Program-made: the position numbers and the translations under genes
Part shown: one piece after another, positions 49,768-64,000 of the stretch
How positions within the stretch are numbered: the stretch's first letter is position 1
Layout: each line of letters begins with the position of its first letter
DNA from: Rhodobacteraceae bacterium (ex Bugula neritina AB1)
GTDB lineage: Bacteria; Pseudomonadota; Alphaproteobacteria; Rhodobacterales; Rhodobacteraceae
DNA: 64,000 nucleotides
Direction of reading: 5' to 3'
NCBI GenBank assembly: GCA_001730095.1
Contig: MDLF01000067.1
Span: 1-64,000, forward strand
Notes under the pieces: generated by a model
Told to the model about the DNA's origin: nothing
Databases searched by the model: none
The model's input: only the letters and a program-made list of their open reading frames with translations

Positions 49768-50688
49768 ATGCGCATCGCCACTCAGCAGAACCCCGCCCTG
49801 GCCGCCGCCCTGATCCTGGCGGCAACCACTTTCATTGCTGCCACCACCCTGCTGGCCAAGGCATTGGGTACGGATGTGCTGGGCACGCCGCTGCACCCGA
49901 TGCAGATCAGCCATGGGCGGTTCCTGTTTGCCTTCATCGGCATCTCAACCGCCGTGCTGATCCTGCGACCCAGGTTCATCCGTCCGCACTGGGGCTACCA
50001 TATCGGCCGCACCTCCTTTGGCTGGGCGGGTGTCACGCTGATGTTTGCCTCGGTTGCCTATATCCCGCTGGCCGATGCCACTGCGATCACCTTTCTGAAC
50101 CCGGTTTTCGGCATGCTGCTGGCGATCCCGCTGTTGGGCGAACGGGTCGGACCCTGGCGCTGGGGTGCTGCGCTGATTGCGATGATCGGAGCGATGATCC
50201 TGCTGCGCCCCACTCCTGCCAGCTTTCAGCCCGCAGCACTGCTGGCCCTGGGCGCGGCCGCAGTGATGGGGCTGGAGCTGATCTTCATCAAGAAACTGGC
50301 TGGCCGTGAAGGGCCGCTGCAGGTCCTGTGGTTCAACAACCTGCTGGGCGTGATGATCGCCAGCGGCGCGGTGCTTGCGGTCTGGCAGATGCCAACCCTC
50401 GCGCAATGGGGCGCGCTGGCTGCGCTGGGCCTTCTGATGGCCTGTGCCCAGGCCTGTTTCATCAATGGCATGGCGCGGGCCGATGCCTCTTTTGTGGCGC
50501 CGTTCAGCTATGCCACGCTGGTTTTTGCCGCACTCTACGATTTCCTGGGCTTTGGCGTTGTGCCGGATCGCATTTCCATGTTTGGCGCCACGATCATCCT
50601 GGCGGGCGCTGCCATCCTGGCCTGGCGCGAAGGCCGCCAGAAGCCCCAGCCTGCCGCTCCAGCAAGCAGCGACCGACCATCCGCCTGA
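49768..50688 (+). CDS. EamA-family (DMT) transporter
   Basis: 306 residues with ten predicted membrane helices arranged as two EamA repeats; the second begins near 155. Signature-like segments are VAYIPLADATAITFLNPVFGMLLA and DASFVAPFSYATLVFAALYDFLGFG. Relatives export amino acids, their analogues or other metabolites; no substrate is suggested by the context. A Pro/Ala-rich cytoplasmic tail ends the protein. Confidence 0.88.
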   Translation: MRIATQQNPALAAALILAATTFIAATTLLAKALGTDVLGTPLHPMQISHGRFLFAFIGISTAVLILRPRFIRPHWGYHIGRTSFGWAGVTLMFASVAYIPLADATAITFLNPVFGMLLAIPLLGERVGPWRWGAALIAMIGAMILLRPTPASFQPAALLALGAAAVMGLELIFIKKLAGREGPLQVLWFNNLLGVMIASGAVLAVWQMPTLAQWGALAALGLLMACAQACFINGMARADASFVAPFSYATLVFAALYDFLGFGVVPDRISMFGATIILAGAAILAWREGRQKPQPAAPASSDRPSA

Positions 50689-50795
50689 AGAAAGTTTTCC
50701 CGCAACAGGCTCCGGAACGACGCCCGCGTCGAAAACCGGCATTTTCCGGGCATGTTCCGCTCTCATCCTGACGTGCAGGAAAACAGGAGCGGCAG

Positions 50796-52046
50796 ATGCA
50801 CGAACGGCGGATTCCTGATTGGCTGCGCCACGCACCGGTGCCTTCGGTGCGGGATTTCGGAATTCTGGCCGGGCTGGAAGCGATGGTCCGCGGCATCCTG
50901 ATCTCTGTTTTTCCGCTGATCATGTACCGGGCCTTGGGAGACGCCGGGCTGGTTTCGGCCTCTTATCTTGCGGTGGGGGTGCTGTCACTGATCGCCGGGC
51001 TGATGGTGCCCGCGCTGATCCGGCTGGTACCGCGCCGATGGGCCTATAGTCTGGGCACGCTGATGTTCGTGCTGTCAGCAGCCTGCGCGATTGAGGGCAG
51101 CCCGGGTTCAGTGCTGGCCGCCCTGGCGCTCAACACTGTTGCGGCCGTCACCACCTTCATCTGTTTCAATGCCTATGTGCTGGACTACATTGCCCGGGTC
51201 GAACTGGGCCAATGCGAGACTTCACGGATGTTCTACTCAGCCCTTGGCTGGACCGCAGGGCCGATGGCCGGGGTGCTGCTGCTGGAGTGGTGGCAGCCCG
51301 CCCCTTTTCTAATCTCCGCCGCTGCTGCCCTGCTGATGCTGGCGGCCTTTTGGTGGATGCGGATGGGCAACGGCAAGCAGATCACACGCGCCCGCGGCCC
51401 GGCTTCCAACCCACTGAAATACCTGCCGCGTTTCCTGGAGCAGCCGCGGCTGATCACCGGCTGGCTGTTTGCGGTAATCCGGTCGGCGGGCTGGTGGATC
51501 TATGTGGTCTACCTGCCGATCTTTGCCATCGAAAAGGGTCTGGGAGAGGAGCTGGGCGGCATCCTGCTGTCAGCGACCAACGCCTGCCTGTTCGGCGCGC
51601 CGCTGCTGCAGCGCTGGGTGCAGCGGCATTCCATCCGGCTGGCCGTGCGCAGCGGTTTCCTGACGGTCACCCTCTGCTTTGGCGCTGCGGCTGTGTTGCA
51701 GGGCTGGCCTGCGGTGTCGGTTGGCCTGCTGATGGCAGGTTCAGCGGCGTTGATCCTGCTGGACATCTGCGGTGGGCTGCCGTTTCTGATGGCGGTAAAA
51801 CCCTCCGAGCGCACCGAGATGTCGGCGGTCTATTCCAGCTACCGGGACATTTCAGGCATTCTGACGCCGGGAGTGGCCTGGCTGGTGCTGATGGTGTCGC
51901 CGCTGGCCGGTATCTTTGCCGTCGGCTCCGCCGCCATGTGGGGGGCCGCCCTTTTGGCAGGCAAGCTGCACCCGCGGCTGGGCCGCAAGAAACCTGCAGG
52001 TGCCGAAACCGGGGAACCGGAGGCCCGAAAGCTGGCCGCCGAATAG
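50796..52046 (+). CDS. MFS transporter
   Basis: 416 residues with about 12 membrane helices and weak MFS loop motifs (PALIRLVPRRWAYSLG after helix 2). The protein lacks close resemblance to a named efflux subfamily. A CAGGAGCGGC Shine-Dalgarno lies before the ATG. It reads in the same direction as the EamA gene, 107 bases apart, but a functional link is not evident. Confidence 0.85.
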   Translation: MHERRIPDWLRHAPVPSVRDFGILAGLEAMVRGILISVFPLIMYRALGDAGLVSASYLAVGVLSLIAGLMVPALIRLVPRRWAYSLGTLMFVLSAACAIEGSPGSVLAALALNTVAAVTTFICFNAYVLDYIARVELGQCETSRMFYSALGWTAGPMAGVLLLEWWQPAPFLISAAAALLMLAAFWWMRMGNGKQITRARGPASNPLKYLPRFLEQPRLITGWLFAVIRSAGWWIYVVYLPIFAIEKGLGEELGGILLSATNACLFGAPLLQRWVQRHSIRLAVRSGFLTVTLCFGAAAVLQGWPAVSVGLLMAGSAALILLDICGGLPFLMAVKPSERTEMSAVYSSYRDISGILTPGVAWLVLMVSPLAGIFAVGSAAMWGAALLAGKLHPRLGRKKPAGAETGEPEARKLAAE

Positions 52047-52051
52047 CGGCG

Positions 52052-52864
52052 TCAGGGCTTCAGCCGGTAGCCTGTCCGCAGCATGCCCCAGGCCAGCAGA
52101 CAAACCGCAAAAGTGGCGCCGCTGCACACTGCCAGCCCCAGCAAAGGCGGGCTGTCGGAGGTGCCGATCACTCCGAATCGCACACCATCGATCAGATAGA
52201 ACACCGGGTTAACATAGCTGATCGCCTTCAGAACCGGCGGCAGGGCCTCGACCGAATAGAAAGTGCCGGACAGGAAGGCCAGCGGCGTCACGATGAAATT
52301 GGTGATTGCCGCCATCTGGTCGAACTTGTCGGCAAAGATTCCGGCCACGATGCCCACACTGCCCAGAAACGCCGCCCCCAGCACGATGAACACCAGCGCC
52401 GTCAGCGGATGCGCAGGCACGATCTGAAGCACGGCCATCAGCCCCAGTCCGATGGCCAATGCAACCAGCGTGCCCCGGACCACCGCGCCTGCCAGATAGC
52501 CCAGCAGAATCTCCAGCCCCGACAAGGGCGGCATCAGCGTATCAACGATATTGCCTTGCACCTTGGAAATCACGATGGATGACGACGTGTTGGCAAAGGC
52601 ATTCTGGATCACCGTCATCATCATGATGCCCGGCGCCAGAAAAGTCAGGAACGGCACCCCCATCACATCGCCGCGCTTGGGGCCGATGGCGATATTGAAG
52701 ATCATCAGGAACAGCCCCGCAGTGACCAGCGGCGCCAGCAGGGTCTGGGTCCAGACCGCCAGGAACCGCTTCACCTCGCGCCAGGCCAGCGCCCTGAGCC
52801 CCAGCCAGTTCACCCGCCCAAACCGGCGCGCACCCAATTCCACCTGATAGCCTTGATCCGCCAT
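52052..52864 (-). CDS. ABC-2 type transporter permease
   Basis: 270 residues with six membrane helices; the ABC2_membrane signature is in PFLTFLAPGIMMMTVIQNAFANTSSSI and FIVTPLAFLSGTFYSVEALPPVLKAISYVNPVFYLIDGVRF. Such permeases pair with a separate ATPase to export drugs, polysaccharide or lipid-linked cargo (NodJ/Yad-like). No ATPase gene is adjacent, so its partner is encoded elsewhere. The ATG at 52864 has a GGGGG site. It is convergent with the MFS gene, stops 5 bases apart. Confidence 0.88.
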   Translation of the reverse strand: MADQGYQVELGARRFGRVNWLGLRALAWREVKRFLAVWTQTLLAPLVTAGLFLMIFNIAIGPKRGDVMGVPFLTFLAPGIMMMTVIQNAFANTSSSIVISKVQGNIVDTLMPPLSGLEILLGYLAGAVVRGTLVALAIGLGLMAVLQIVPAHPLTALVFIVLGAAFLGSVGIVAGIFADKFDQMAAITNFIVTPLAFLSGTFYSVEALPPVLKAISYVNPVFYLIDGVRFGVIGTSDSPPLLGLAVCSGATFAVCLLAWGMLRTGYRLKP

Positions 52865-52986
52865 GCTGCCCCCTGTACTTTCGTTGCCCGACTGCATAAC
52901 GGCTGGGCCAATAGGCGCAAGATGCCTTGTAACTCCGCCCGCAGTGATTAGAATAGGCGATTACACGGAATTTGATGGCGGCCGCA

Positions 52987-52991
52987 GAATC
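52987..52991. promoter_or_regulatory. GANTC (CcrM) site in the gcrA promoter
   Basis: GAATC, a candidate CcrM methylation site, 33 bases before the gcrA start. GcrA acts with sigma-70 at methylated GANTC promoters in Caulobacter, so the site could allow feedback. A single GANTC can occur by chance. Confidence 0.4.
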
Positions 52992-53024
52992 CCTGGGGCC
53001 GCTATTAGCTTGGAAAGGCAACAG

Positions 53025-53624
53025 ATGTCCTGGACAGACGAGCGCGTCGAACTGCTCAAGAAAATGTGGGGCGAGGGCCAGTCGGCCAGCCAGATCGCCA
53101 AGGAACTGGGCGGCGTCACCCGCAATGCCGTCATCGGCAAGGTGCACCGGCTCGGCCTGTCCAACCGCAACAGCGGCTCAAAATCGGCAGAGCCCAAGGA
53201 AAAGGCAGCACCGGCAGCCGCAACGGCAGCCGCCGCGCCCAAACCGGCGGCCGCGCCCAAGCCCAAGCCGCAGCCCAAGACCGAGCCGGCGCGCCCGGCG
53301 GCGGCCCAGCCTGCTGCAGAGGCCAAGCCCGCAGCACCAGCACGCCGCCAGATCATCCCGGCCGGCCAGCCGCTGCCGCCGCAGCCCTCGGCCAATGAAA
53401 TCAGCCCCGAGGCGCTGGCCAAGGTCAATGAGATCGAGAAGAAGGCCAAGAAGCTGACTCTGATGGAGCTGACCGAGCGCACCTGCAAATGGCCGGTGGG
53501 CGACCCCGCCACCGAGGACTTCTGGTTCTGCGGCCTGCCCGCCAAACAGGGCAAACCCTATTGCGAGGCACATGTGGGCGTGGCCTTCCAGCCGATGTCC
53601 TCGCGCCGCGATCGCCGCCGCTGA
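53025..53624 (+). CDS. gcrA: GcrA cell-cycle regulator
   Basis: 199 residues. The N-terminal helix-turn-helix SWTDERVELLKKMWGEGQSAS and GGVTRNAVIGKVHRLGLSNR is diagnostic for GcrA, the alphaproteobacterial regulator that binds RNA polymerase sigma-70 and methylated GANTC sites. The C-terminal RNAP-binding part has CKWPVGDP, FCGLPA and GKPYCEAH. Between them is an Ala/Pro/Lys-rich linker of about 75 residues. The ATG at 53025 has AAAGGCAAC upstream. Followed by a terminator. Confidence 0.96.
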   Translation: MSWTDERVELLKKMWGEGQSASQIAKELGGVTRNAVIGKVHRLGLSNRNSGSKSAEPKEKAAPAAATAAAAPKPAAAPKPKPQPKTEPARPAAAQPAAEAKPAAPARRQIIPAGQPLPPQPSANEISPEALAKVNEIEKKAKKLTLMELTERTCKWPVGDPATEDFWFCGLPAKQGKPYCEAHVGVAFQPMSSRRDRRR

Positions 53625-53646
53625 CCGGCCCACCCTGAAAATTCCG

Positions 53647-53678
53647 AAGCCCCGGCACTGCGTCCGGGGCTTTTGTTT
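53647..53678 (+). terminator. intrinsic terminator after gcrA
   Basis: AAGCCCCGG / CCGGGGCTT stem with an 8-base loop, followed by TTGTTTTG, 22 bases after the stop. Confidence 0.88.
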
Positions 53679-53901
53679 TGGAAGACCCGTCGTTTGGCCA
53701 TTGGGCCTTCCGTTTGGCAATTGGGCTTGTGCCGCGAAATTCGTTGACCATGTCCAGGCGCATCCAGCGGTCAGCTTCTGCTGTATGGACCAAACACTCA
53801 AGACAACATTGCTGCGCGCCGCTATCCCGCAGGCAATCGCCAATTGCGGCAACTGACTGGACTGGCATCCGCCGCCTGAAACAAGCACTGTTTTCAGCTT
53901 C

Positions 53902-54837
53902 TCAACCGGTTTTTGATTGCTCTTGGTTTTTCCGCCCGCAGCGCCGCTTCACGAGGTTGATGAAGGTTTTGACGACCAAATTCGGCTCCACGCCGCGTTT
54001 GGAGACCAGCTTGATCTCGGATGTCAGATCATACTTGCCGTTCCCCACCGACCGCATCCGGCCCTGGCGCACCCAGATATCGGCAAAGCTTTCAGGCAGG
54101 TAGCCGATGTAGCGGCCGGTCAGAACCAACATGGAAACGCCTTCGATCTGATGGGCGCTTGCATTGGATCGCAGCCCCCGTGACACCGGTGCTACCAGTT
54201 CTTCGTTCAGATAGGCGCGTTTGCAAAAGTTGATCTCCGGCAGCAGCCGGTCGACTTCGGCCTGTGTGTCGGCCTCAAACAGCGGATGGCCGCGAGCGCA
54301 ATAAAGCGCGACTTTCTCCTCTGCAAGCAGCTCATACACCAAGCCGGGCTTATGCTTGTGAAACACCCCCACACCGATAGCTACACGGCCGTCCTGAACG
54401 TCCATTTCAATGTCATCCGGGGCCAGCGAGTGCAGATCAATGCTGACATCCGGCGCCAGGTCGGCAAAGTCCCTGAGCGCGTCCATCAACGGTGCGGCGT
54501 CGTTGAAGACACAATTGTCTACCGCCGCCACAGTCAGCCGCCCCACCAGTTTGCCACGAGTGCCGTCCACCGTTTCGCCAAACTGGTTCAGCGCCGCAAA
54601 CAATTTGTGCGAGGCGGCATAGACGATCTCACCCTTGTCCGTCAGCCGGAAACCCTTGCGGCCACGCTGGCACAGGCGCATGCCCAGCCGGGTTTCCAGA
54701 TCCGAAATCTGCCGCGAGATGGTGGAGGCCGAGACATTCAGGCTGATCTGCGCTGCGGAAAACCCGCGCGCTTCCACCACTGCGCAGAACACATAAAGCA
54801 GGTGCATATCGGCTTTGGAGAAGGCAGGCGGCAGCAT
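53902..54837 (-). CDS. LysR-family regulator of the guanidino-compound island
   Basis: 311 residues. The helix-turn-helix (about 12-70) reads FCAVVEARGFSAAQISLNVSASTISRQISDLETRLG; the effector domain follows. It is divergent from the amidinotransferase gene with 117 bases between ATGs, and a dyad operator lies in that gap, so control of the island is likely. The ATG at 54837 is preferred to a TTG at 54858. The C-terminal tail is basic (RRCGRKNQEQSK). Confidence 0.9.
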   Translation of the reverse strand: MLPPAFSKADMHLLYVFCAVVEARGFSAAQISLNVSASTISRQISDLETRLGMRLCQRGRKGFRLTDKGEIVYAASHKLFAALNQFGETVDGTRGKLVGRLTVAAVDNCVFNDAAPLMDALRDFADLAPDVSIDLHSLAPDDIEMDVQDGRVAIGVGVFHKHKPGLVYELLAEEKVALYCARGHPLFEADTQAEVDRLLPEINFCKRAYLNEELVAPVSRGLRSNASAHQIEGVSMLVLTGRYIGYLPESFADIWVRQGRMRSVGNGKYDLTSEIKLVSKRGVEPNLVVKTFINLVKRRCGRKNQEQSKTG

Positions 54838-54856
54838 GAGAGCACTGTACTTGCAC

Positions 54857-54889
54857 AATTACTAAAGTTAAATCCCTTAGTTTGTAATT
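54857..54889. promoter_or_regulatory. dyad operator between LysR and amidinotransferase genes
   Basis: AATTAC at 54857-54862 and GTAATT at 54884-54889 are exact inverted arms; inside them TAAAG and CTTAG add a partial second dyad. The 33-base AT-rich dyad is the size of a LysR activation site. A perfect TATAAT follows at 54900-54905, so bound regulator would overlap the -35 position. Confidence 0.55.
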
Positions 54890-54899
54890 TAATAAAAGA

Positions 54900-54905
54900 T
54901 ATAAT
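54900..54905 (+). promoter_or_regulatory. -10 element of the guanidino-island promoter
   Basis: TATAAT, perfect consensus, 50 bases before the amidinotransferase ATG. The best -35 at 17-base spacing (TTAGTT) is weak, as expected for an activator-dependent promoter. Confidence 0.5.
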
Positions 54906-54954
54906 TCGGTCAAGCCTGTCACCCAAGAACGCCGTTTCTGGGAGGCCGAGCAGG

Positions 54955-55896
54955 ATGGACGCAAGCACTCCGACAGCCAAGCGCTGGGGGATCAACAATG
55001 ACTACGCCAAGCTGACGGATGTTCTTCTGGGCAAGCCGGAATATTTCAAATGGGTCGACGCCGGTCCCCTGATCGGACGCACCCTGGCAAATGCGCATAA
55101 GACTGGCGTGCAGTTCGACCTGCAGCTGGCGATGAAGCAGCACGCGGAGATGGTGTCGATTTACGAAGACGCCGGCGTGACCTGCCATTACCTCGACAGC
55201 GACGAGGTGCTGCACCGCAATTTCTTTGCTCGTGACAGTTCCGCAATGACGCCCTGGGGCGCGCTGATCTGCCATATGCAGCTGAAATGCCGCCGGGCGG
55301 ATTATGCCACCGCAATCAAGTTCTATCAGGACAATGATATCCCGATCTGGAAATTCGCCACCGCAGGCCATTTCGAAGGCGGCGATTTCAATATCATCGA
55401 GCCGGGCCGGGTTCTGATTGGCTATTGCGGAGAGCGGTCCGAGAAAGAGGGGGCTGAACAGGTGGCCGGGTTTGTCCGCGCCGAGGGCTGGGAGGCTGTG
55501 GTGGCCCCGATCAGCCGCGAATTTGTGCATATGGACGGGCTGATCGTGCCGCTGGCGGACAAACTGGCAGTGGCCTGCATTGACGCGATGGAGCCCTGGC
55601 TGGTGGATGTCGTCAAAGGCTGGCGGATTGAGATCGTCGATGTCTCATATGCCGAGGCCAAGAACCTGGGCGTGAACCTGGTGGCACTGGGGGACGGCAA
55701 GGTGCTGTCGATGGCTGGCGCCAAGAAATTAAATGCAAAAATGCGGGCGCTGGGGTTCGAGGTCTATGACCCGGACATGTCGATGTTCACCCTTGGTGGC
55801 GGCGGCGTGCATTGCCTGAGCCAGGCGCTGTGCCGGGAAGATCCCGCAACCGCAAGCCGACGTACAACTTCCATTCGTGAAACCCCGGCATCGTGA
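54955..55896 (+). CDS. amidinotransferase / dimethylargininase-type guanidine-modifying hydrolase
   Basis: 313 residues of the guanidine-modifying enzyme (pentein) superfamily. Active-site positions can be placed: FARDSS with Asp94, GHFEGGDF with Glu141 and Asp144, VHMDG with His192 and Asp194, and the nucleophile Cys287 in GGGGVHCLSQ. The family includes arginine deiminase, glycine amidinotransferase and dimethylarginine dimethylaminohydrolase; the short length and HCLSQ ending fit a hydrolase of the DDAH/arginine deiminase side. GGGAGGCCGAGCAGG precedes the ATG. With the importer and two ureohydrolases downstream, it likely attacks an imported guanidino compound. Confidence 0.85.
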   Translation: MDASTPTAKRWGINNDYAKLTDVLLGKPEYFKWVDAGPLIGRTLANAHKTGVQFDLQLAMKQHAEMVSIYEDAGVTCHYLDSDEVLHRNFFARDSSAMTPWGALICHMQLKCRRADYATAIKFYQDNDIPIWKFATAGHFEGGDFNIIEPGRVLIGYCGERSEKEGAEQVAGFVRAEGWEAVVAPISREFVHMDGLIVPLADKLAVACIDAMEPWLVDVVKGWRIEIVDVSYAEAKNLGVNLVALGDGKVLSMAGAKKLNAKMRALGFEVYDPDMSMFTLGGGGVHCLSQALCREDPATASRRTTSIRETPAS

Positions 55897-55956
55897 TCAC
55901 GCGCCGGGTGCTTAAACCCAAAAATCCAAAGTGATCATCCAACAAGGGAGACTGAC

Positions 55957-56907
55957 ATGAAGACAGCAAAAACACTGGCCGCTGCCGCATTGACTGCCGC
56001 CATCGGCGGCACCGCCATGGCGCAGGATGTGGTGATCGGAGTGCCGAACTGGGCCTCTGTCCGCGGCACCGCCCATATCCTGAAAGTGGCGATGGAGGAC
56101 AACCTGGGCCTGTCTGTGGAGCTGCAGAACGGCACCAATCCGATTATTTTCGAAGCGATGGATTCCGGCGCCATGCATGTGCACCCGGAGGTCTGGCTGC
56201 CCAACCAGCAGAACCTGCATGACACCTTTGTCACCGGCAAGGGTACGGTGGTCTATAACCCGAATGCGGTGCTTTCGGATCAGCAAATCTGCGTCACCAA
56301 GGATACCCAGGAGCGCACCGGCATTTCGGCGCTCAGCGATCTGACCGACCCGGATATGGCAGCCAACTTTGACACCGATGGCGACGGCCGTGGCGAGATC
56401 TGGATCGGCGGGGCGGGCTGGGCCTCAACCAATGTCGAAAAGATCCGTGCCAAGTCTTATGGCTACTCTGAAACCATGAACCTGATGGAGATGGATGAGA
56501 CACTGGCGCTGGCCCAGGTCGACAATGCGGTGGCGCAGGGGCAGAACATCGTCTTTTTCTGCTACACCCCGCACCACATGTTCTCGCTCTATGACCTGGT
56601 GCCGCTGACCGAGCCTGCCTATGACGCGGCTGAATGGGATGTGAAACAGCCGACCGATGATCCGAACTGGCTGGAAAACTCCAAGGCCGGCACCGCCTGG
56701 GACGCGGCCAAGCTACATGTGTTCTATGCCGCTGGCCTGGCCGACAGCCAGCCGGAAGCCGCAGCGATGCTGGGCAAGGTGGCGCTGACCACAGAGCAGG
56801 TGAATGCTGTGGTCTATGCGCTGTCGGTTGATGGCCAGGATCCGGCCGAGTTTGCCCGCAAATGGGTCGATGAGAACGCCGATCTGGTGGACTCCTGGTT
56901 CCAGTAA
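55957..56907 (+). CDS. glycine-betaine/proline-betaine type ABC substrate-binding protein
   Basis: 316 residues of the OpuAC/ProX family with a signal peptide (cut after GGTAMA, about residue 22). Aromatic residues that could make a cation-pi cage are in GVPNWASVRGT, HPEVWLPNQ and GGAGWASTN. It delivers a cationic substrate, a betaine or here perhaps a guanidinium compound, to the membrane complex. An AAGGGAG site precedes the ATG. Within the island it follows the amidinotransferase by 60 bases. Confidence 0.88.
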   Translation: MKTAKTLAAAALTAAIGGTAMAQDVVIGVPNWASVRGTAHILKVAMEDNLGLSVELQNGTNPIIFEAMDSGAMHVHPEVWLPNQQNLHDTFVTGKGTVVYNPNAVLSDQQICVTKDTQERTGISALSDLTDPDMAANFDTDGDGRGEIWIGGAGWASTNVEKIRAKSYGYSETMNLMEMDETLALAQVDNAVAQGQNIVFFCYTPHHMFSLYDLVPLTEPAYDAAEWDVKQPTDDPNWLENSKAGTAWDAAKLHVFYAAGLADSQPEAAAMLGKVALTTEQVNAVVYALSVDGQDPAEFARKWVDENADLVDSWFQ

Positions 56908-56976
56908 CATGCCCAATCATATGTCCACAGGTGGGCGGCAGAACCGCCCGCCTGTGGACATGCGGAGACTGCTCTC

Positions 56977-58026
56977 ATGACTGACAATGTGATCACGCTG
57001 GACGGCGTATGGAAAATCTTCGGGGCGAATGCCGGTGCCGCCATGGCAGCGATCCTCGAACGCGGCCTGGGCAAGGCTGAGGTGCTGGAGGAATTCAACT
57101 GCGTCGTCGGTATTGCCGATGTGTCCTTTGAGGTGAAGCGCGGCGAAATCTTCTGTGTGATGGGCCTGTCGGGCTCCGGAAAATCCACCATGGTGCGCCA
57201 CCTGAACCGGCTGATCGAGCCCACTGCGGGCAGTATCTCGGTGCTGGGTCGCGACATGCTGACCCTGTCCGACGGAGCCTTGCGGGAAATGCGGGCGATG
57301 AACATTGGCATGGTGTTCCAGCATATGGCACTGCTGCCGCACCGCACCGTACGCGACAACGTGGGCTTTCCGCTGCAGGTGCGCGGTGAACCGAAATCCA
57401 CCCGCTGGGAGATCTCGCAGCGCTGCCTGGACAAGGTGAACCTGACCGGGTTCGAGGACCGTTTCCCGCGCGAACTGTCGGGCGGCATGCAGCAACGGGT
57501 CGGCCTGGCGCGGGCGCTGGCTTCGGACCCGGATGTGCTGTTGATGGATGAACCGTTTTCGGCGCTGGACCCGCTGATCCGGCGCCAGCTGCAGGACCAA
57601 TTCATGAAGCTCTCGGCTGAGCTGAACAAGACCACCGTCTTCATTACCCACGATCTGGACGAGGCGATCCGCATCGGCAACCGCATTGCCATCATGAAGG
57701 ATGGCCGCATCGTGCAGATCGGCACTCCGGAAGAGATCGTCACCCAGCCCGCCGACGATTATGTGCGCGACTTTGTCGAAGGCATTTCCAAGCTGAAACT
57801 GGTGTTCGCCCATTCAATCATGGTGCCGATCAGCGAGTATAAGCCCACCCGGCCCGTCAATTTCGACGAAAGCCCGCGGGCGCATCACGGCACCGACCTG
57901 GATCAGCTGATCGATATCGCCACATCAACCGAAAACGTGATTGTCATCACCAGCGATGATGGTGCCGACATCGGCGTGGTCGACCGCGCCACGCTGTTGA
58001 AAGGCATTCAAGGAGGCAAGGCATGA
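56977..58026 (+). CDS. glycine-betaine/proline-betaine type ABC transporter ATPase
   Basis: 349 residues. Walker A is GLSGSGKST, signature LSGGMQQRVGLARAL, Walker B VLLMDEPFSALDP and the switch His is in FITHDLDEA. The OpuAA/ProV-type N terminus (VWKIFGANAGAAM) and a reduced C-terminal CBS-like tail (TSTENVIVITSDDGADIGVVDR) mark it as the quaternary-amine uptake family. It overlaps the permease start (ATGA). Confidence 0.93.
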   Translation: MTDNVITLDGVWKIFGANAGAAMAAILERGLGKAEVLEEFNCVVGIADVSFEVKRGEIFCVMGLSGSGKSTMVRHLNRLIEPTAGSISVLGRDMLTLSDGALREMRAMNIGMVFQHMALLPHRTVRDNVGFPLQVRGEPKSTRWEISQRCLDKVNLTGFEDRFPRELSGGMQQRVGLARALASDPDVLLMDEPFSALDPLIRRQLQDQFMKLSAELNKTTVFITHDLDEAIRIGNRIAIMKDGRIVQIGTPEEIVTQPADDYVRDFVEGISKLKLVFAHSIMVPISEYKPTRPVNFDESPRAHHGTDLDQLIDIATSTENVIVITSDDGADIGVVDRATLLKGIQGGKA

Positions 58027-59582
58027 AAGATACCACGTTCCAGTCGCCTGACCTGAGTGTCGAACAATTCACCGTTGACAACAGCTCCTATTACGTCCGC
58101 GAATTTGCCCGCATCCAGGGCAAGACCGGCTTTGCCTGGTCGTGGAACACCATGGCCGCTGTCTGTGGCCCCCTCTGGGGAGCTGCCCGCGGTGCCTGGG
58201 GATTCTTCTGGATGTTCCTGGTGCTTGAGCTGTTTGCCCTGGTGCAGATCGGCCGGGGCCTGTGGGGTGAACTCGGCGCTGATCAGCTGACCCGCTATGA
58301 GCGCCTCCTGACCAATATCACCAAGCGCGAGGCGCAGGCGGCAGACCTGACCGCCGCAGGCGACGTCGCAGGGGCAGCTGCCAAGCTGAAGATCGCCGAC
58401 AACCTGCGCGCTGCCGCCGACAAGGCGCTGGAGGCCGCCAATGCCGCCAACAGCACCGCCCTCGCCATTCTGCTCACTGGTCTTGCCTTGATGGCAGTGA
58501 TCAAACTGGCGGAAGGTTTCTATGCCAACATATCTTACGAGGCGCAGTATCTGCGCTGGCGCTCCGGTCAGAAAGCCCAGTCAGGGATGCGCCGCAGCGG
58601 GCTGATCTTTGGCGCCATCGGCCTTGTGGCGATCTGGCCGCTGACCCTGGTGCGCTTCACCGTTGCCAAACCGGATGAGGCCGTGGCCAGCGTCACCGGC
58701 GGGCTGCTGGGCGAACGGCTGCCGATCACCGAATTTCCGATCGGCAAGGAATATTTCGCCGCGCTGTCCAAAAAGGGCGATGCCGGGTTCGATTGGCTGG
58801 CCAACAACTTTGGCGATGTGTTCGACGGGGTGACCGCCGGCATCCGCTGGGTACTGGACGGGCTGGAGGTGCTGCTGATCCAGACGCCCTGGCCCGTGGT
58901 AATGTTCGTGACCGTAGTGATGGCGCTACGCCTGGCCGGGCCGCGGGTGGCCGTTTTCACCGCCGCCTCGCTGGCCTATCTGGCCTTCATGGGCCTGTGG
59001 GAACTGGCGATGATCACAGTGGCGCTGATCGGCGCCGGGGCCTTCCTGTGCGTGGCCATCGGCATTCCGCTTGGCATCTGGTTCGGCAAGTCCAAACGCG
59101 CCTATGCCATCGCGGAACCTGTGCTGGACTTCATGCAGACCATGCCGGCCTTTGTCTACCTGATCCCGATCATCGCCTTTTTCGGCACCGGCAAGCCGCC
59201 GGGCGTATTGGCCACGCTGGTCTTTGCGATGCCACCGGTGATCCGCCTGACCGCATTGGGCATGCGCGGAGTGCCCGAAGCCACCAAGGAAGCCGCCGTT
59301 GCCTTTGGCTGCTCGCGTCGCCAGCTGCTGTTCAATGTCGAACTGCCCCTGGCGCTGCCCTCGATCATGACCGGCATCAACCAGACCATCCTGATGTCGC
59401 TGTCGATGGTGGTGATCGCCTCGCTGATCGGTGCCGAAGGTCTGGGCGCATTGATCCTGGAAGCGCTGCAATACGCGGCCAAAGGCCAGGGCCTCTTGGG
59501 CGGTCTCGCAATTCTGTTCTGTGCCATGGTCATCGACCGGATCGCACAGGGCGCCTACCGCAGAAAAACCAGCGAAAGCTGA
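58023..59582 (+). CDS. glycine-betaine/proline-betaine type ABC permease with long N-terminal extension
   Basis: 519 residues, against about 280-350 for typical ProW/OpuAB. The C-terminal 250 residues are the standard BPD permease, with the EAA-loop region GVPEATKEAAVAFGCSRRQLLFNVELPLALPSIMTGI. The first 250 carry extra membrane helices (about 42-75, 147-170, 195-215) and a periplasmic or cytoplasmic coiled coil rich in Ala/Lys/Asp (REAQAADLTAAGDVAGAAAK). The extension could contact the binding protein or regulate transport. Translationally coupled to the ATPase. Confidence 0.9.
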   Translation: MKDTTFQSPDLSVEQFTVDNSSYYVREFARIQGKTGFAWSWNTMAAVCGPLWGAARGAWGFFWMFLVLELFALVQIGRGLWGELGADQLTRYERLLTNITKREAQAADLTAAGDVAGAAAKLKIADNLRAAADKALEAANAANSTALAILLTGLALMAVIKLAEGFYANISYEAQYLRWRSGQKAQSGMRRSGLIFGAIGLVAIWPLTLVRFTVAKPDEAVASVTGGLLGERLPITEFPIGKEYFAALSKKGDAGFDWLANNFGDVFDGVTAGIRWVLDGLEVLLIQTPWPVVMFVTVVMALRLAGPRVAVFTAASLAYLAFMGLWELAMITVALIGAGAFLCVAIGIPLGIWFGKSKRAYAIAEPVLDFMQTMPAFVYLIPIIAFFGTGKPPGVLATLVFAMPPVIRLTALGMRGVPEATKEAAVAFGCSRRQLLFNVELPLALPSIMTGINQTILMSLSMVVIASLIGAEGLGALILEALQYAAKGQGLLGGLAILFCAMVIDRIAQGAYRRKTSES

Positions 59583-59607
59583 CCCCTCCCCCGGGGTGAT
59601 CCCGGAC

Positions 59608-59646
59608 TGCCCCGGTGTTGAAGATCCGGCATCGGGGCATTTTTTA
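59608..59646 (+). terminator. hairpin with T run between permease and ureohydrolase genes
   Basis: TGCCCCGGTG pairs with CATCGGGGCA (one internal mismatch) across a 12-base loop, followed by TTTTTT. It lies 26 bases after the permease stop and 20 bases before the next start, so it should reduce read-through within the island. Confidence 0.75.
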
Positions 59647-59665
59647 AAAACAGGCAGGGATACCT

Positions 59666-60655
59666 ATGGCTGATGAACACCTGAAATCCATGATGGAAAA
59701 CCTGTATTGGTGGGGCATCCCCACCATGTTCCGCTGCCCCAATGAAGGCCCGGAAAATCAGGACATTGCCTTGGTCGGCGTGCCCCACTCCACCGGCAAT
59801 GGCACAACCGAGCGCGACCAGCATCTGGGGCCACGCGCGCTGCGCAATGTCTCCGCCGTCGGGCGACGGGTGCATGGAGCGTTTCGGCTGAACCCCTGGG
59901 AGGTCGCCAAGATCGCCGATATCGGCGACGTGCCCTTCCCCCGCGCCAATGACAACGAGGACTGCATCGAGCAGATCACCCGCTTTTATCGGCAGATCGA
60001 CGCAGCAGGCGCCCGCCCCGTCTCTGTCGGCGGTGACCATTCGATCACCGGCGGCATTGTGCAGGCAATCGGCTGCGGCAAGATCACCAAGGGTGAGCCA
60101 GTCTGCTTTCTGCACTTTGATGCCCATACGGATGTGTTCACCAAGGTCGACCACTTCCTGGGCGCCAAGAAATCCGCGGCCCATTGGGGCGCCTATCTGG
60201 CGGATCAGGGCGCGGTGGATCCGCATCATTCAATGCAGATCGGCCTGCGCGGCCACCCCAGGACGCTCGACTGGCTGCAGCCCTCTTATGACTATGGCTA
60301 CAACATTGTTACCATGAAGGAATTCCGCAAACGCGGGGAAGAAGACGTGGCCGCGCAGATCAAGGATGTGATGGCGGGACGTCCGGTCTACATCACCTTT
60401 GATCTTGACTGCCTGGACCCCACGATTGCGCCCGCGGTTTCCAACCTGGAGCCGGGCGAAAAAGGCTTTGATATCGACGAGGCGGTCGCCCTGCTGCACA
60501 GCGTGCGCGGCATGAACATCGTCGGCGGCGATATCGTCTGCATGATGCCGACCAAGGACAGCCCCAATCAGATCACCGCCCTGACCGCCTCGGCAATCAT
60601 GTTCGAGATGATTTCAATGATCGCAGAAAATGTGAAGAACGGAGCAATTGCATGA
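59666..60655 (+). CDS. ureohydrolase (agmatinase/arginase family), diverged loop
   Basis: 329 residues. Binuclear metal ligands are complete: His125 in GGDHS, Asp152-His154-Asp156 in FDAHTD, Asp246 and Asp248 in FDLDCLDP. The substrate loop differs from agmatinases: after DPTIAPA it has VSNLEPGEKG instead of GTGTPxxGG, so the substrate or the quaternary role has changed. The enzyme would split a guanidino or amidino compound to urea. The next homologue overlaps its stop by ATGA, which suggests that the two act together, perhaps as a heteromer. Confidence 0.87.
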   Translation: MADEHLKSMMENLYWWGIPTMFRCPNEGPENQDIALVGVPHSTGNGTTERDQHLGPRALRNVSAVGRRVHGAFRLNPWEVAKIADIGDVPFPRANDNEDCIEQITRFYRQIDAAGARPVSVGGDHSITGGIVQAIGCGKITKGEPVCFLHFDAHTDVFTKVDHFLGAKKSAAHWGAYLADQGAVDPHHSMQIGLRGHPRTLDWLQPSYDYGYNIVTMKEFRKRGEEDVAAQIKDVMAGRPVYITFDLDCLDPTIAPAVSNLEPGEKGFDIDEAVALLHSVRGMNIVGGDIVCMMPTKDSPNQITALTASAIMFEMISMIAENVKNGAIA

Positions 60656-61632
60656 CCCGAACAGGCGACATCTTCTTCCAGCCGGTATCCGCCATGGACC
60701 TGCCCCGCTTTGCCGGTGTGCCGACCTTCATGCGGTTGCCATCGATGACCCCGGATCACCCCCGCTACGGCGAGGTGCAAATGGGGCTGATCGGGGTGCC
60801 CTGGGACGGCGGCACCACCAACCGCCCCGGCGCCCGCCACGGGCCGCGGCAGCTGCGCGACTGCTCCACCATGATCCGGGCAATGAACCCGGTTACCGGC
60901 GTGAACCCCTTCACCGCCGTCAATTGCGCCGACCTGGGTGATGTGCCGCCCAATCCGGTGGACATTCAGGACAACTTGGACCGCATCACAGCCTTTTACA
61001 GCAGCCTGAAACAGCAAGCTATCACCCCGATGACCGCGGGTGGTGATCATCTGATCACCCTGCCGATCCTGCGGGCGATGGCGGCGGATGGCCCGTTGGG
61101 GTTGGTCCAGTTCGACAGCCACACCGACCTCTTCGACAGCTATTTCGGCGGCTACAAATACACCCATGGCACCCCGTTCCGCCGCGCGGTGGAGGAAGGG
61201 CTGGTCGACCCGAAACGCTTTGTTCAGGTCGGCATCCGCGGCACCGCTTATAACTCCGAGGACATCGAGTGGGGACTGGAGCAAGGCATCCGCATCATCC
61301 GTGTGGAAGAGCTGTTTGACCGCGGCATCAAGGATGTGATGGAAGAGGTGCGTGGCATTCTTGGCAGCAAACCGGCCTATTGCAGCTATGATATCGATTT
61401 TGTCGATCCCACCTATGCGCCCGGCACCGGCACGCCGGAAGTCGGCGGTCCCAACAGCTTTCAGGCGCAACAGGTGATCCGCGAGCTGGCCGGGGTCAAT
61501 CTGATCGGCGCCGATCTGGTCGAAGTAGCGCCGCCCTTTGACGAAACGGGCGGCACCGCCTGGCTGGGCATCTCGCTGATGTTCGAACTGATGTGTGTGC
61601 TGTCCCAAGCGAGGGTCCGGCAAATGGGATAA
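60652..61632 (+). CDS. ureohydrolase (agmatinase/guanidinobutyrase-like)
   Basis: 326 residues with canonical family motifs: GGDHLIT (His133), FDSHTD (Asp155, His157, Asp159), HGTPFRRA (His172) and YDIDFVDPTYAPGTGTPEVGG (Asp247, Asp249, Glu263). This looks like an active Mn- or Ni-type ureohydrolase releasing urea from agmatine, guanidinobutyrate or a related compound. It is translationally coupled to the diverged paralogue. No urease gene is in the window. Confidence 0.9.
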   Translation: MTRTGDIFFQPVSAMDLPRFAGVPTFMRLPSMTPDHPRYGEVQMGLIGVPWDGGTTNRPGARHGPRQLRDCSTMIRAMNPVTGVNPFTAVNCADLGDVPPNPVDIQDNLDRITAFYSSLKQQAITPMTAGGDHLITLPILRAMAADGPLGLVQFDSHTDLFDSYFGGYKYTHGTPFRRAVEEGLVDPKRFVQVGIRGTAYNSEDIEWGLEQGIRIIRVEELFDRGIKDVMEEVRGILGSKPAYCSYDIDFVDPTYAPGTGTPEVGGPNSFQAQQVIRELAGVNLIGADLVEVAPPFDETGGTAWLGISLMFELMCVLSQARVRQMG

Positions 61633-62183
61633 GCCGGACCGCCCCCCAAAGTTCACCCCCATGATAGAACAGGTTCAATATCAGAAGCCTATCCTATAGG
61701 GCTCATTTGTTCATAACTGCCGCTGTTGATGGCTGCCCAAAGCCAGTTCAACCGTCCTTCAGCGTAACTGGCCGCAGAACTCCCCCGAATTTGGCCGGGA
61801 CCTGACAGTGCCCCAGCAGCCGCTGAATGTAATCGGCTTCAGGCAATACCCCCGCCGGTGAAATTCTCAGGAGGACAGTTGGCAGACGGCTTGGACGCCA
61901 AGCCTGCTGCCTGCCAAGACAGTCTGAGGACTGGATACAGCCCGCATATATGCTGGGCTGGCCAGTGCCGGGCATATGTTCAGCAAGCCCCTGTCAGCTA
62001 CATATTCAGTTGCCCCGGCCGTCTTCCCCTGCGCTGGCGCGGACTGTCTCTTGCCGCATGTGGTGATTGGCCGACAAACCGAGCGTAGCCTGCGCCAAGC
62101 ATGGCCTTGCAACATTCCCGTTTCCTTGACCTGCATGCAGGGTTTTCCGGATGTTTGCCATCAGCCAACAAATGGCCGGCGTC
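61633..62183. other. 550-base gap, no supported gene
   Basis: Short open frames on both strands lack ribosome sites and show no recognisable domain. No terminator with a clear T run was seen right after the ureohydrolase. The stretch may hold degraded coding sequence, but nothing could be identified. Confidence 0.4.
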
Positions 62184-62726
62184 CTAATTGAACCTAATTT
62201 CAGGCGCGATGAGCTGGCTGATCAGCCCACCAGTGTTCACCGCGCTATAAGTAGACCTCGGCGGGCGGGCCGCGCCGTCTACGCTGCGGCAGACCCAGCG
62301 TCTTGCCTCCATGGATTTCAATGATTGAGACAACGCCCGGTCCGTTATCGTCGGCAGGTTTCGCTTGATGTCGCTGAAATGGCTCGGAGTGTGGAGCGAT
62401 GTCAAAATTGGCAACGTCCATGAACGGCGCAGCAGAGGCTGATCCTCCTGCGTCGACACTTCATAGACCTTATGGGCAATGGCTGCCGCTGAAACTCCCA
62501 ACTGTGTAAGGCGGAATTCAGGGCGCAGCGGATGACCGTACCCTGGGTTGCGTTCAATCAATCCAATTTCAATCAGGTGGTCCATGCTTTGCGCAAAGGC
62601 GGTTCTACCGGCACCGGTCGCAGCCAACAAGGGCGCCTGCCGTCCGGCCACGCCCGAATGCAGGCACGAGAGTATGGGCATTGCCCAAGCCTTTGATGTG
62701 ACGTTGACAAGCATCTCAATGTACAT
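62184..62726 (-). CDS. HxlR-like winged-helix regulator with two related halves
   Basis: 180 residues, longer than ordinary HxlR proteins (about 100-130). Two halves look alike: SKAWAMPILSCLHSG ... LIEIGLIERNPGYG...YRLTQLG-like EFRLTQLG in the first, and RRSWTLPILTSLHTP ... SQSLKSMEARRWVCRSVDG in the second. Each matches the HxlR start (xxWxxxILxxL) and wing. It faces the VOC gene with only 39 bases between, and probably represses it. The start is uncertain: ATG at 62726 lacks a ribosome site and an ATG at 62714 is possible. Confidence 0.75.
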   Translation of the reverse strand: MYIEMLVNVTSKAWAMPILSCLHSGVAGRQAPLLAATGAGRTAFAQSMDHLIEIGLIERNPGYGHPLRPEFRLTQLGVSAAAIAHKVYEVSTQEDQPLLRRSWTLPILTSLHTPSHFSDIKRNLPTITDRALSQSLKSMEARRWVCRSVDGAARPPRSTYSAVNTGGLISQLIAPEIRFN

Positions 62727-62765
62727 AAAGTATAGTTAGTATATTTTAAATCATGAGGAAAGCCC

Positions 62766-63146
62766 ATGTCACTGGTTGAAGTCGATCAAACCATCACCAT
62801 CGCAATGTCGGTCAAAGATCGCCATCAGAGCGCAAAATGGTACGAAACCATGCTGGGATTTGAGCTGCTCTACCATGCCGATGAGGCGGGCTGGTCCGAG
62901 GTTCGGACGAATACGCCAGGTGTCACCATCGGCCTTGGCGAACACACCAAGCCAGCCCCGGGCAACTGCGTGCCAGTTTTCGGGATCGCTGATCTGGAGT
63001 CGGCACGTCAGAAACTGGAACAGGCCAAAGTCGTGTTTGATGGTGAGACGGATGTCGTCGAGGGCATGGTCAAAACCGCGACTTTCTACGACCCCGACGG
63101 CAATGCGCTGATGCTTGCGCAGGATTTGACCGGCGCAATTGCATAA
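62766..63146 (+). CDS. VOC-superfamily (glyoxalase-like) protein
   Basis: 126 residues with two beta-alpha-beta-beta-beta units: ITIAMSVKDRHQSAKWYETMLGFELLY and VPVFGIADLESARQKLEQ, ending with the typical TATFYDPDGNALMLAQDL. The final Glu found in many metal-binding members is Ala-rich here (LMLAQ), so metal chemistry is uncertain. An AGGAAAG site precedes the ATG. It is divergent from the HxlR-like gene, suggesting a small inducible unit, for example for detoxification of an electrophile. Confidence 0.83.
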   Translation: MSLVEVDQTITIAMSVKDRHQSAKWYETMLGFELLYHADEAGWSEVRTNTPGVTIGLGEHTKPAPGNCVPVFGIADLESARQKLEQAKVVFDGETDVVEGMVKTATFYDPDGNALMLAQDLTGAIA

Positions 63147-63314
63147 CATGCAGATTTTTTAAGGTATCCACGGCGCGTCTGCTTCTGGCAGGCACCGCGC
63201 CTGCTACAACTCGCGCCAATTTGGAGACTTGCGTTCGACCGCAACCAACAGCCTCGCCGCAGGCATGTAAGTATCTATATTAATTACTGAAATAGAAAAG
63301 TTACTTAGAGCGCT

Positions 63315-63344
63315 TTGCAGGCAAGGCCGTCGCCTTGCCTGCAA
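63315..63344. terminator. 13-bp hairpin between VOC and YHS genes
   Basis: TTGCAGGCAAGGC and GCCTTGCCTGCAA form a perfect stem around a 4-base loop, between convergent genes. T runs are short on both sides, so it may be a weak bidirectional terminator. Confidence 0.6.
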
Positions 63345-63351
63345 GTTTCAA

Positions 63352-63870
63352 TCAGTTCGCAACAGGCCCTTCAGACGTGAATTTGGGGATCACGCTGTCT
63401 GAGGCCGCTTTCCCCTCAATCCCCGGCCAGTTGCCTTCGGCCAGATTGATGTTGCTGGGGATGTCTTCTTCCCAGAAACCGACCACCACATCGGTGATGT
63501 TCAGATAGAGCTTGTCGTCGACAATGCGCCACAGATGCGGGTTGGCCGGTACTTTGCCCCCCTTGGAGACGCCATAGGCGCAATGGCCGTCGTACTGCGG
63601 CGCATAGTGGGCCGGGTTGGCCGCAAATTTATCGCGGTTCTCAGCCGAGGAGAACGCCCAGGTTGCGCCGTTGTAGTCCGCTGTGAATGCCGCATTGCCG
63701 CGGACCGGAGCGGTCTGAGGCGTGCCAACCGGCTTCATCTCCAGGCTGTGGTAGGCCACAACATCATAGCCCGACACCGCATAGCCGGTGCCGTCGACAT
63801 ACTGCTCCCCGGCAAAGGCCGGCAGGGCAAAGGACAGCGCTGCCGCAGCAGCAAATGCAAAACGCTTCAT
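63352..63870 (-). CDS. YHS-domain secreted protein
   Basis: 172 residues with a signal peptide (cut after ALPAFA, about residue 20). The YHS-type segment is GYDVVAYHSLEMKPVGTP, then WAFSSAENRDKFAANPAHYAPQYDGHCAYGVSKG, typical of periplasmic YHS proteins annotated in Rhodobacteraceae. YHS domains bind metal in some proteins (the C-x-x-x-Y site here has one cysteine only). The role is unknown. Single gene with promoter in the right edge region. Confidence 0.85.
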   Translation of the reverse strand: MKRFAFAAAAALSFALPAFAGEQYVDGTGYAVSGYDVVAYHSLEMKPVGTPQTAPVRGNAAFTADYNGATWAFSSAENRDKFAANPAHYAPQYDGHCAYGVSKGGKVPANPHLWRIVDDKLYLNITDVVVGFWEEDIPSNINLAEGNWPGIEGKAASDSVIPKFTSEGPVAN

Positions 63871-64000
63871 GAAATCATCCCTTTCATCGGTGATCGCTTC
63901 AAATTGGGCACCGGCAAATGATCCGGCCTTGCCCTGACATTACTGCTCTGGCGGAAAATGCGAAGGGGGGTTCACGGCTCTGTGTCCTGGGACGAGAGGA
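63871..64000. other. right edge, promoter region of the YHS gene
   Basis: 130 bases without a supported gene. A GGGATGATTTC stretch on the minus strand supplies a plausible ribosome site before the YHS start. Confidence 0.35.

Follow-up and report, generated by a model that had tools for sequence, protein, structure and literature searches.

A candidate portable cassette for short guanidino acids in a Rhodobacteraceae genome, with a probable gene deletion

Marine animals and algae contain nitrogen-rich solutes of the guanidino-acid class, whose uptake and use by marine bacteria seem poorly mapped. Among the closest described systems, the guanidinobutyrase GbuA has an Arg from the neighbouring subunit, R72, that is thought to face the substrate carboxylate, according to PMC9772407, and metformin hydrolase is described in PMC11271267 as a heterohexamer of an arginase pair in which MetCb is metal-free. 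PMC8864220 states that Roseobacter denitrificans Och114 can grow on creatine while lacking CreT, the known transporter, which leaves room for another importer. The 64,000-nucleotide (nt) stretch analysed here (the window; contig MDLF01000067.1 of Rhodobacteraceae bacterium (ex Bugula neritina AB1), positions 1 to 64,000) carries a seven-gene block encoding a LysR-type regulator, a pentein-fold hydrolase, an ABC importer and two ureohydrolases, UH1 and UH2. We read this block, with modest confidence, as a portable cassette for the catabolism of short guanidino acids, zwitterions such as 3-guanidinopropionate, guanidinoacetate/creatine or taurocyamine.

The seven-gene block and its distribution

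The whole window was aligned to nine relatives carrying the full gene set (loci L039, L040, L041, L042, L045, L046, L047, L190 and L194; only matches longer than 250 nt were considered), and in 9/9 the sole homology was found at 53.95–61.63 kb, ending inside the LysR gene on one side and inside the UH2 gene on the other. The flanks comprised ~7 kb on the LysR side and 0.5–1.1 kb on the UH2 side in L039–L047, and ~1.3–2.1 kb and 6–7 kb, respectively, in L190 and L194. Because nothing else in the window was matched at this length in any of the nine, the block is, judging from these alignments, a portable unit that resides in differing surroundings in marine bacteria. A sequence-only reading of this DNA had already proposed a self-contained island, and its ends lie within ~60 nt of the homology-block ends in 9/9 relatives; the gene places and families that it gave likewise agree with the coordinates and with Pfam/NCBIfam matches for all seven genes. 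The features are:

53902–54858, minus strand: LysR-type regulator, divergent from the pentein gene (Pfam/NCBIfam match)
54955–55896, plus strand: PENT, pentein-fold guanidine-modifying hydrolase, arginine deiminase (ADI)/DDAH-like, probable deiminase (Pfam ADI, DDAH_eukar)
55842–55900, plus strand: probable scar of a deletion, comprising 41 nt of filler of unexplained origin and then the terminal codons with the stop of an M20-type gene now lost
55957–56907, plus strand: OpuAC-type periplasmic binding protein (SBP; Pfam OpuAC)
56908–56976, plus strand: long stable hairpin with no T-tract between the SBP and ATPase genes (fold −42.0 kcal/mol)
56977–58026, plus strand: ABC ATPase of ProV/ChoV type (ABC_tran and ProV/ChoV models)
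58023–59582, plus strand: ABC permease with a ProW/ChoW-type C-terminal half (BPD_transp_1 and ChoW/ProW models)
59608–59645, plus strand: intrinsic-terminator-like hairpin between permease and UH1, 13-pair stem and six T
59666–60655, plus strand: UH1, ureohydrolase of a distinct subfamily (Pfam Arginase)
60652–61632, plus strand: UH2, GpuA-like guanidino-acid ureohydrolase with a complete catalytic set (Pfam Arginase)

The longest LysR frame starts with TTG at 54858 and its true start may be internal; 4-nt overlaps join the ATPase to the permease gene and UH1 to UH2. A compositional island was rejected, as the GC content of the block (0.606) hardly departs from that of the window (0.615), and no tRNA that could mark an integration site was found in 40,000–64,000.

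A pentein scan of genome contigs gave 167 confirmed relatives, of which 80 were kept. All seven genes were present in 7/80 of these loci, many of them cut by contig ends, and the LysR gene of this cluster in 29/80. Genes were listed at a locus from matches aligned over more than 60 residues, and absences are to be read as lower bounds, with loci cut at contig ends kept in the counts; furthermore, the simple gene caller missed some genes, e.g. those for the SBP and the M20 enzyme in L190. The sequence-only reading had suggested looking for the gene set in other Roseobacter genomes; among the carriers of the complete set are Roseobacter sp. SK209-2-6, Leisingera sp. ANG-M1 and a Ruegeria that is uncultured. 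The sole other same-genus genome listed (G238) contained neither the pentein nor UH1.

When 295 genomes of the family were compared, a pentein of at least 75% identity was found in 12, and UH1 was present in 9/12 genomes with the pentein compared to 12/283 without it (Fisher p 1e-9 with the own genome included and 1e-8 without), a co-occurrence that ignores kinship and assumes that both draws contain the same genomes G000–G294 (the 394-genome draw contains the 295). The two genes are both present yet non-adjacent in G059, G072 and G201. The UH1 subfamily was found in 29/394 genomes of the family sample and in 12/385 of the class sample, the own genome being counted in both.

Importer, pentein and the missing M20 gene

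The ATPase scored over the ProV subfamily cut-off (341 of 327 bits), and the SBP was under the cut-offs for both ProX (75 of 215 bits) and choline-binding proteins (73 of 379 bits). Four aromatic residues of the SBP (W32, W80, W155 and Y203) are kept in 97–100% of 31 SBPs; W80 and W155 align with Trp residues of ProX, and Y203 also aligns with a ProX Trp. A cation cage in the SBP is plausible on this alignment, and the cation-suited aromatic cages earlier attributed to OpuAC-type binding proteins are matched by residues at cage-like positions. The permease has an N-terminal extension of ~250 residues (58023–58770) before the ProW-like domain, for which no Pfam match was obtained at E 0.001, and the permease is of similar length in relatives.

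The pentein signature is present as R93-D94, E141-G-G-D144, H192-x-D194 and C287, and each of these residues is conserved in ≥97% of the 78 close relatives and ≥90% of the 11 distant ones, the latter being those recovered by the simple gene caller. The catalytic Cys, His, Glu and Asp are all in place and conserved, in line with the intact catalytic residues of the earlier reading; their roles are presumably those of the corresponding residues in ADI and DDAH. The protein fell below the NCBIfam cut-off of every named enzyme (best 64 of 340 bits), and fold comparison, made with a pentein model of moderate quality, singled out no subfamily. The distant relatives (40–50% identity) sit in mixed contexts that indicate no substrate. 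Two convergent pentein paralogues adjoin each other at one locus (L136:6630-8530), with ~85% and 41% identity to the window protein, and at another (L080:1260-8891) the pentein adjoins genes for a TmpA-type dioxygenase, a FAD-GcvT protein and MttB, linking it to quaternary-amine clusters.

In six of seven full-set relatives (L039, L040, L041, L045, L046 and L047), an intact M20 gene of the N-carbamoyl-amino-acid-hydrolase type lies between the pentein and SBP genes. The M20 protein scores 637 bits against a cut-off of 452 for an allantoate-amidohydrolase subfamily, and 424 bits against 204 for the hydantoinase/carbamoylase model; its gene follows that of the pentein in 10/80 loci, and in L040 the two genes share 4 nt at the pentein stop. 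A carbamoyl hydrolase right behind the pentein would fit a pentein that makes a ureido acid. The window has no M20 gene at this place: homology ends at 55841 and resumes at 55883 (8887 and 10131 in L040), and the resumed sequence opens with the last codons and stop of the M20 gene, which now form the end of the pentein open reading frame. The pentein frame therefore appears to end on the former M20 stop codon. The match to the L040 M20 tail consists of 18 exact nt, ~14 of them inside M20, and continues into the shared SBP leader.

From this tail, it is probable that the M20 gene was deleted in this strain and left its end as a scar; the same tail makes the converse less likely, namely an original absence of M20 from the window and a gain in the relatives. 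Counting against a deletion, the match inside M20 is short (~14 nt), and in L042, likewise devoid of M20, no comparable tail is seen. The 41-nt filler could not be traced to M20, its best local matches scoring within those of shuffled sequences. The nearest M20 relative elsewhere in the own genome is 55% identical and was rejected as the moved gene, as its equals exist in G200 and G340, which keep the cassette M20.

The ureohydrolase pair and the fate of urea

UH2 was found to be most similar to the 3-guanidinopropionase of P. aeruginosa (391 bits), followed by guanidinobutyrase (305 bits). Residues were counted among distinct sequences with >42% identity to the window protein for UH2 and >50% for UH1, with bit-score floors. 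The six metal ligands, the catalytic His and the guanidinium Glu occur in 18/18 UH2 sequences and in the window protein, five of the 18 being more distant, with T/G where the others have L/F next to the metal site. The carboxylate-side Arg is also found in 18/18, and is absent from two agmatinases and a proclavaminate hydrolase in the alignment. UH2 is assigned as a GpuA-like guanidino-acid hydrolase. A further arginase paralogue in the own genome (C74:472259-473074) has a GbuA-like Met and Arg pattern.

All six metal ligands are also kept in UH1 (H125, D152, H154, D156, D246 and D248; 41/41 aligned orthologues), in line with the earlier claim of intact metal sites in both enzymes. The column of the guanidinium-binding Glu, which we take to correspond to E277 of arginase I (GbuA E287), is Cys (C292) in 41/41. 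Moreover, the His column of the HGT loop is Ala in 41/41, with a His one residue later in S170-A-A-H-W174 (loop 162–172 of the model has a predicted local distance difference test score, pLDDT, <50), and the carboxylate-side Arg is present in 40/41. UH1 is, by these residues, no standard guanidine hydrolase, and the two linked guanidine hydrolases proposed earlier are not supported as a standard pair. A metal-free pseudoenzyme is not the default either, the ligands being invariant. Members of this subfamily are likely named agmatinase despite the loss of a key guanidine-binding residue.

The Cys in place of the guanidinium Glu would suit a sequential pathway, in which the pentein makes a ureido acid that UH1, metal-dependent and no longer binding the cationic guanidinium, hydrolyses; the second step would be taken either by UH1 or by M20, and UH2 would serve other guanidino acids. 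The enrichment of UH1 in pentein genomes points the same way, as do four loci (L076, L079, L081 and L112) that combine pentein, importer and UH1 and show neither M20 nor UH2, a 4.5-kb contig on which pentein and UH1 are adjacent (L049, the same contig as L228), and the pentein-M20-DppA loci L052, L058 and L072, where no UH1 was seen in the locus. On the other hand, UH1 and the importer occur in G079, G184 and G269 with no pentein among the matches listed, M20 and UH1 stand together in 6/7 full clusters, and we know of no arginase-fold enzyme that hydrolyses ureido acids; the pathway is considered doubtful. That UH1 hydrolyses the neutral ureido acid of its partner pentein, or another non-guanidine C–N bond, would be a new arginase-fold activity, with which pentein and UH1 together would turn a guanidino acid into an amino acid, two ammonia and CO2 with no urea, in bacteria often without urease; we judge it rather improbable.

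UH1 and UH2 could instead be subunits of one hetero-oligomeric hydrolase, UH1 being the modified partner, by analogy with the arginase-pair heterohexamer of metformin hydrolase (PMC11271267). The genes are adjacent with a 4-nt overlap, the proteins share 30% identity and one has altered catalytic residues; in L198 and L202 the pair occurs with no importer beside it (a truncated pentein frame lies at the edge of L202). Every metal ligand is, however, kept in 41/41 UH1 sequences, in contrast to the metal-free MetCb of the same account. UH2 matches of at least 65% identity were found in just 20/40 UH1 genomes, one being a fragment, and an obligate UH1–UH2 partnership was rejected on this count; a joint enzyme seems to us quite unlikely. 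In L198 and L202 the pair lies beside genes for an Xsc-like thiamine diphosphate (ThDP) enzyme, an aldehyde dehydrogenase, a luciferase-like oxygenase and AA_synth proteins, an unnamed pathway. A decarboxylase plus dehydrogenase route drawn from these neighbours (scanned in L198, by clustering in L202) was set aside as resemblance, with scores under the named cut-offs.

Near 41 distinct UH1 loci, the ATPase (of the importer's broad cluster) was found 19 times, the permease 18, the pentein 15, the SBP 15 and MttB 6, with 12/41 loci coming from the pentein search and the set hence enriched for pentein. FAD-GcvT genes, the D-cysteate sulfo-lyase CuyA (L195, L220) and a DegT aminotransferase also recur. 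The MttB and FAD-GcvT neighbours, together with the OpuAC/ProX/ChoX type of the importer, would be expected of a betaine- or creatine-type osmolyte cassette, in which methylated zwitterions are imported and the hydrolases serve creatine or similar compounds, feeding sarcosine and demethylation routes. MttB in 6/41 UH1 loci, the FAD-GcvT protein scanned in L080 (L103, L195 and L197 have members of its cluster or proteins with similar starts) and, in L207, genes near UH1 that resemble sarcosine oxidase, judged by their sequence starts alone, are consistent with it. All three gene types are nevertheless absent from the window cluster, the CuyA (L195, L220) and TmpA (L080) neighbours suggest other zwitterions, and the known hydrolase of creatine, creatinase, has a different fold, which makes this option distinctly improbable.

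An equivalent of the permease–UH1 hairpin, diverged in sequence, is found in 10/10 distinct full clusters (the window and the nine aligned relatives; L220 was unusable for this count) and, outside full clusters, in 1/8 loci that have both permease and UH1 (present in L200; absent from L076, L079, L081, L112, L193, L195 and L197). A stem of at least 9 pairs with a T-tail arose in 0/500 mononucleotide shuffles of the window spacer, and a permissive terminator scan gave no excess in the region (4 found, 6.8 expected). As the T-run is ~20 nt from UH1, read-through or attenuation into UH1 would be likelier than a new promoter. The hairpin at 56908–56976 may possibly serve uneven mRNA stability, and no guanidine riboswitch or other known RNA was matched in 50,000–64,000 at the Rfam gathering threshold.

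The own genome (G000) has eight arginase-family genes yet no urease was detected: the alpha subunit search returned one weak fragment match (22.6 bits), and no urea carboxylase was over cut-off. Among 17 genomes holding the pentein or UH1, eight have urease. Because neither urease nor a full urea carboxylase was detected, urea as a nitrogen source, as proposed earlier, is unsupported for this strain. Of the original interpretation, the self-contained unit stands, and the use of urea and the pair of standard guanidine hydrolases are not supported; the absent guanidinium-binding Glu of UH1, the gene missing between pentein and SBP and the terminator-like hairpin before UH1 are additions to it.

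Proposed function and comparison with described systems

For the guanidino-acid cassette, we infer the following substrates, reactions and regulation. The OpuAC-type importer would bring a short guanidino acid into the cell, where two parallel chemistries would take off the amidino group. In one route, the pentein would deiminate the guanidine to a ureido acid and ammonia, and in cassettes with M20, the M20 enzyme would then free the amino acid, CO2 and ammonia. In the other, UH2, with or without UH1, would hydrolyse the guanidine directly to an amino acid and urea. The LysR protein would control the divergent promoter, and read-through into UH1–UH2 is probably reduced or made conditional by the hairpin that follows the permease gene. 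In this strain, loss of M20 would leave the pentein route broken or leaning on another enzyme, and urea from the UH2 route would probably be excreted. The cassette would offer a defined, portable set in which an importer is combined with two competing chemistries and from which one step has dropped out by natural loss. For methylated arginine and gigartinine, candidates in the sequence-only reading, no evidence was found. That reading knew of no described pathway with exactly this set, and a literature search, with most subscription journals outside its coverage, also found no recognised description.

Several points weigh against such a cassette. The pentein is about equally near to NnhA, ArgZ, DDAH and ADI, so that likeness does not fix its reaction, and UH1 has Cys at the guanidinium column throughout. 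Pentein, importer and ureohydrolases are each found without the others, and the co-occurrence of pentein and UH1 carries the limits given above. The MttB, FAD-GcvT and CuyA genes near UH1 elsewhere lean towards methylated (betaines) or sulfonated zwitterions, and the hairpin before UH1 could mean separate expression of the ureohydrolases.

When compared to described systems, the importer has the OpuAC SBP, ProV/ChoV ATPase and ProW/ChoW permease core in common with ProXWV/ChoXWV, but its SBP is below their cut-offs, one ProX cage Trp column is Tyr, and the permease has a long N-terminal extension. The pentein has the fold and the Cys-His-Glu-Asp signature of ADI, DDAH and ArgZ; it differs in scores far under their named cut-offs (64 of 340 bits) and in having an importer as neighbour. 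As in metformin hydrolase (MetCaCb/MfmAB), two arginase-family genes are adjacent and one has altered active-site residues, whereas both window proteins keep six ligand residues, UH1 is nearer to GpuA in sequence and fold, and UH1 often occurs without a close UH2. UH2 matches P. aeruginosa GpuA and GbuA over nearly full length, with the complete metal site, His, Glu and carboxylate-side Arg alike, and has Tyr, like GpuA, at the column of GbuA M161, a residue that we take to matter for specificity. In contrast to GpuA, whose own neighbours are a different transporter and regulator, the UH1–UH2 pair of the window is placed behind a betaine-type ABC importer and a pentein.

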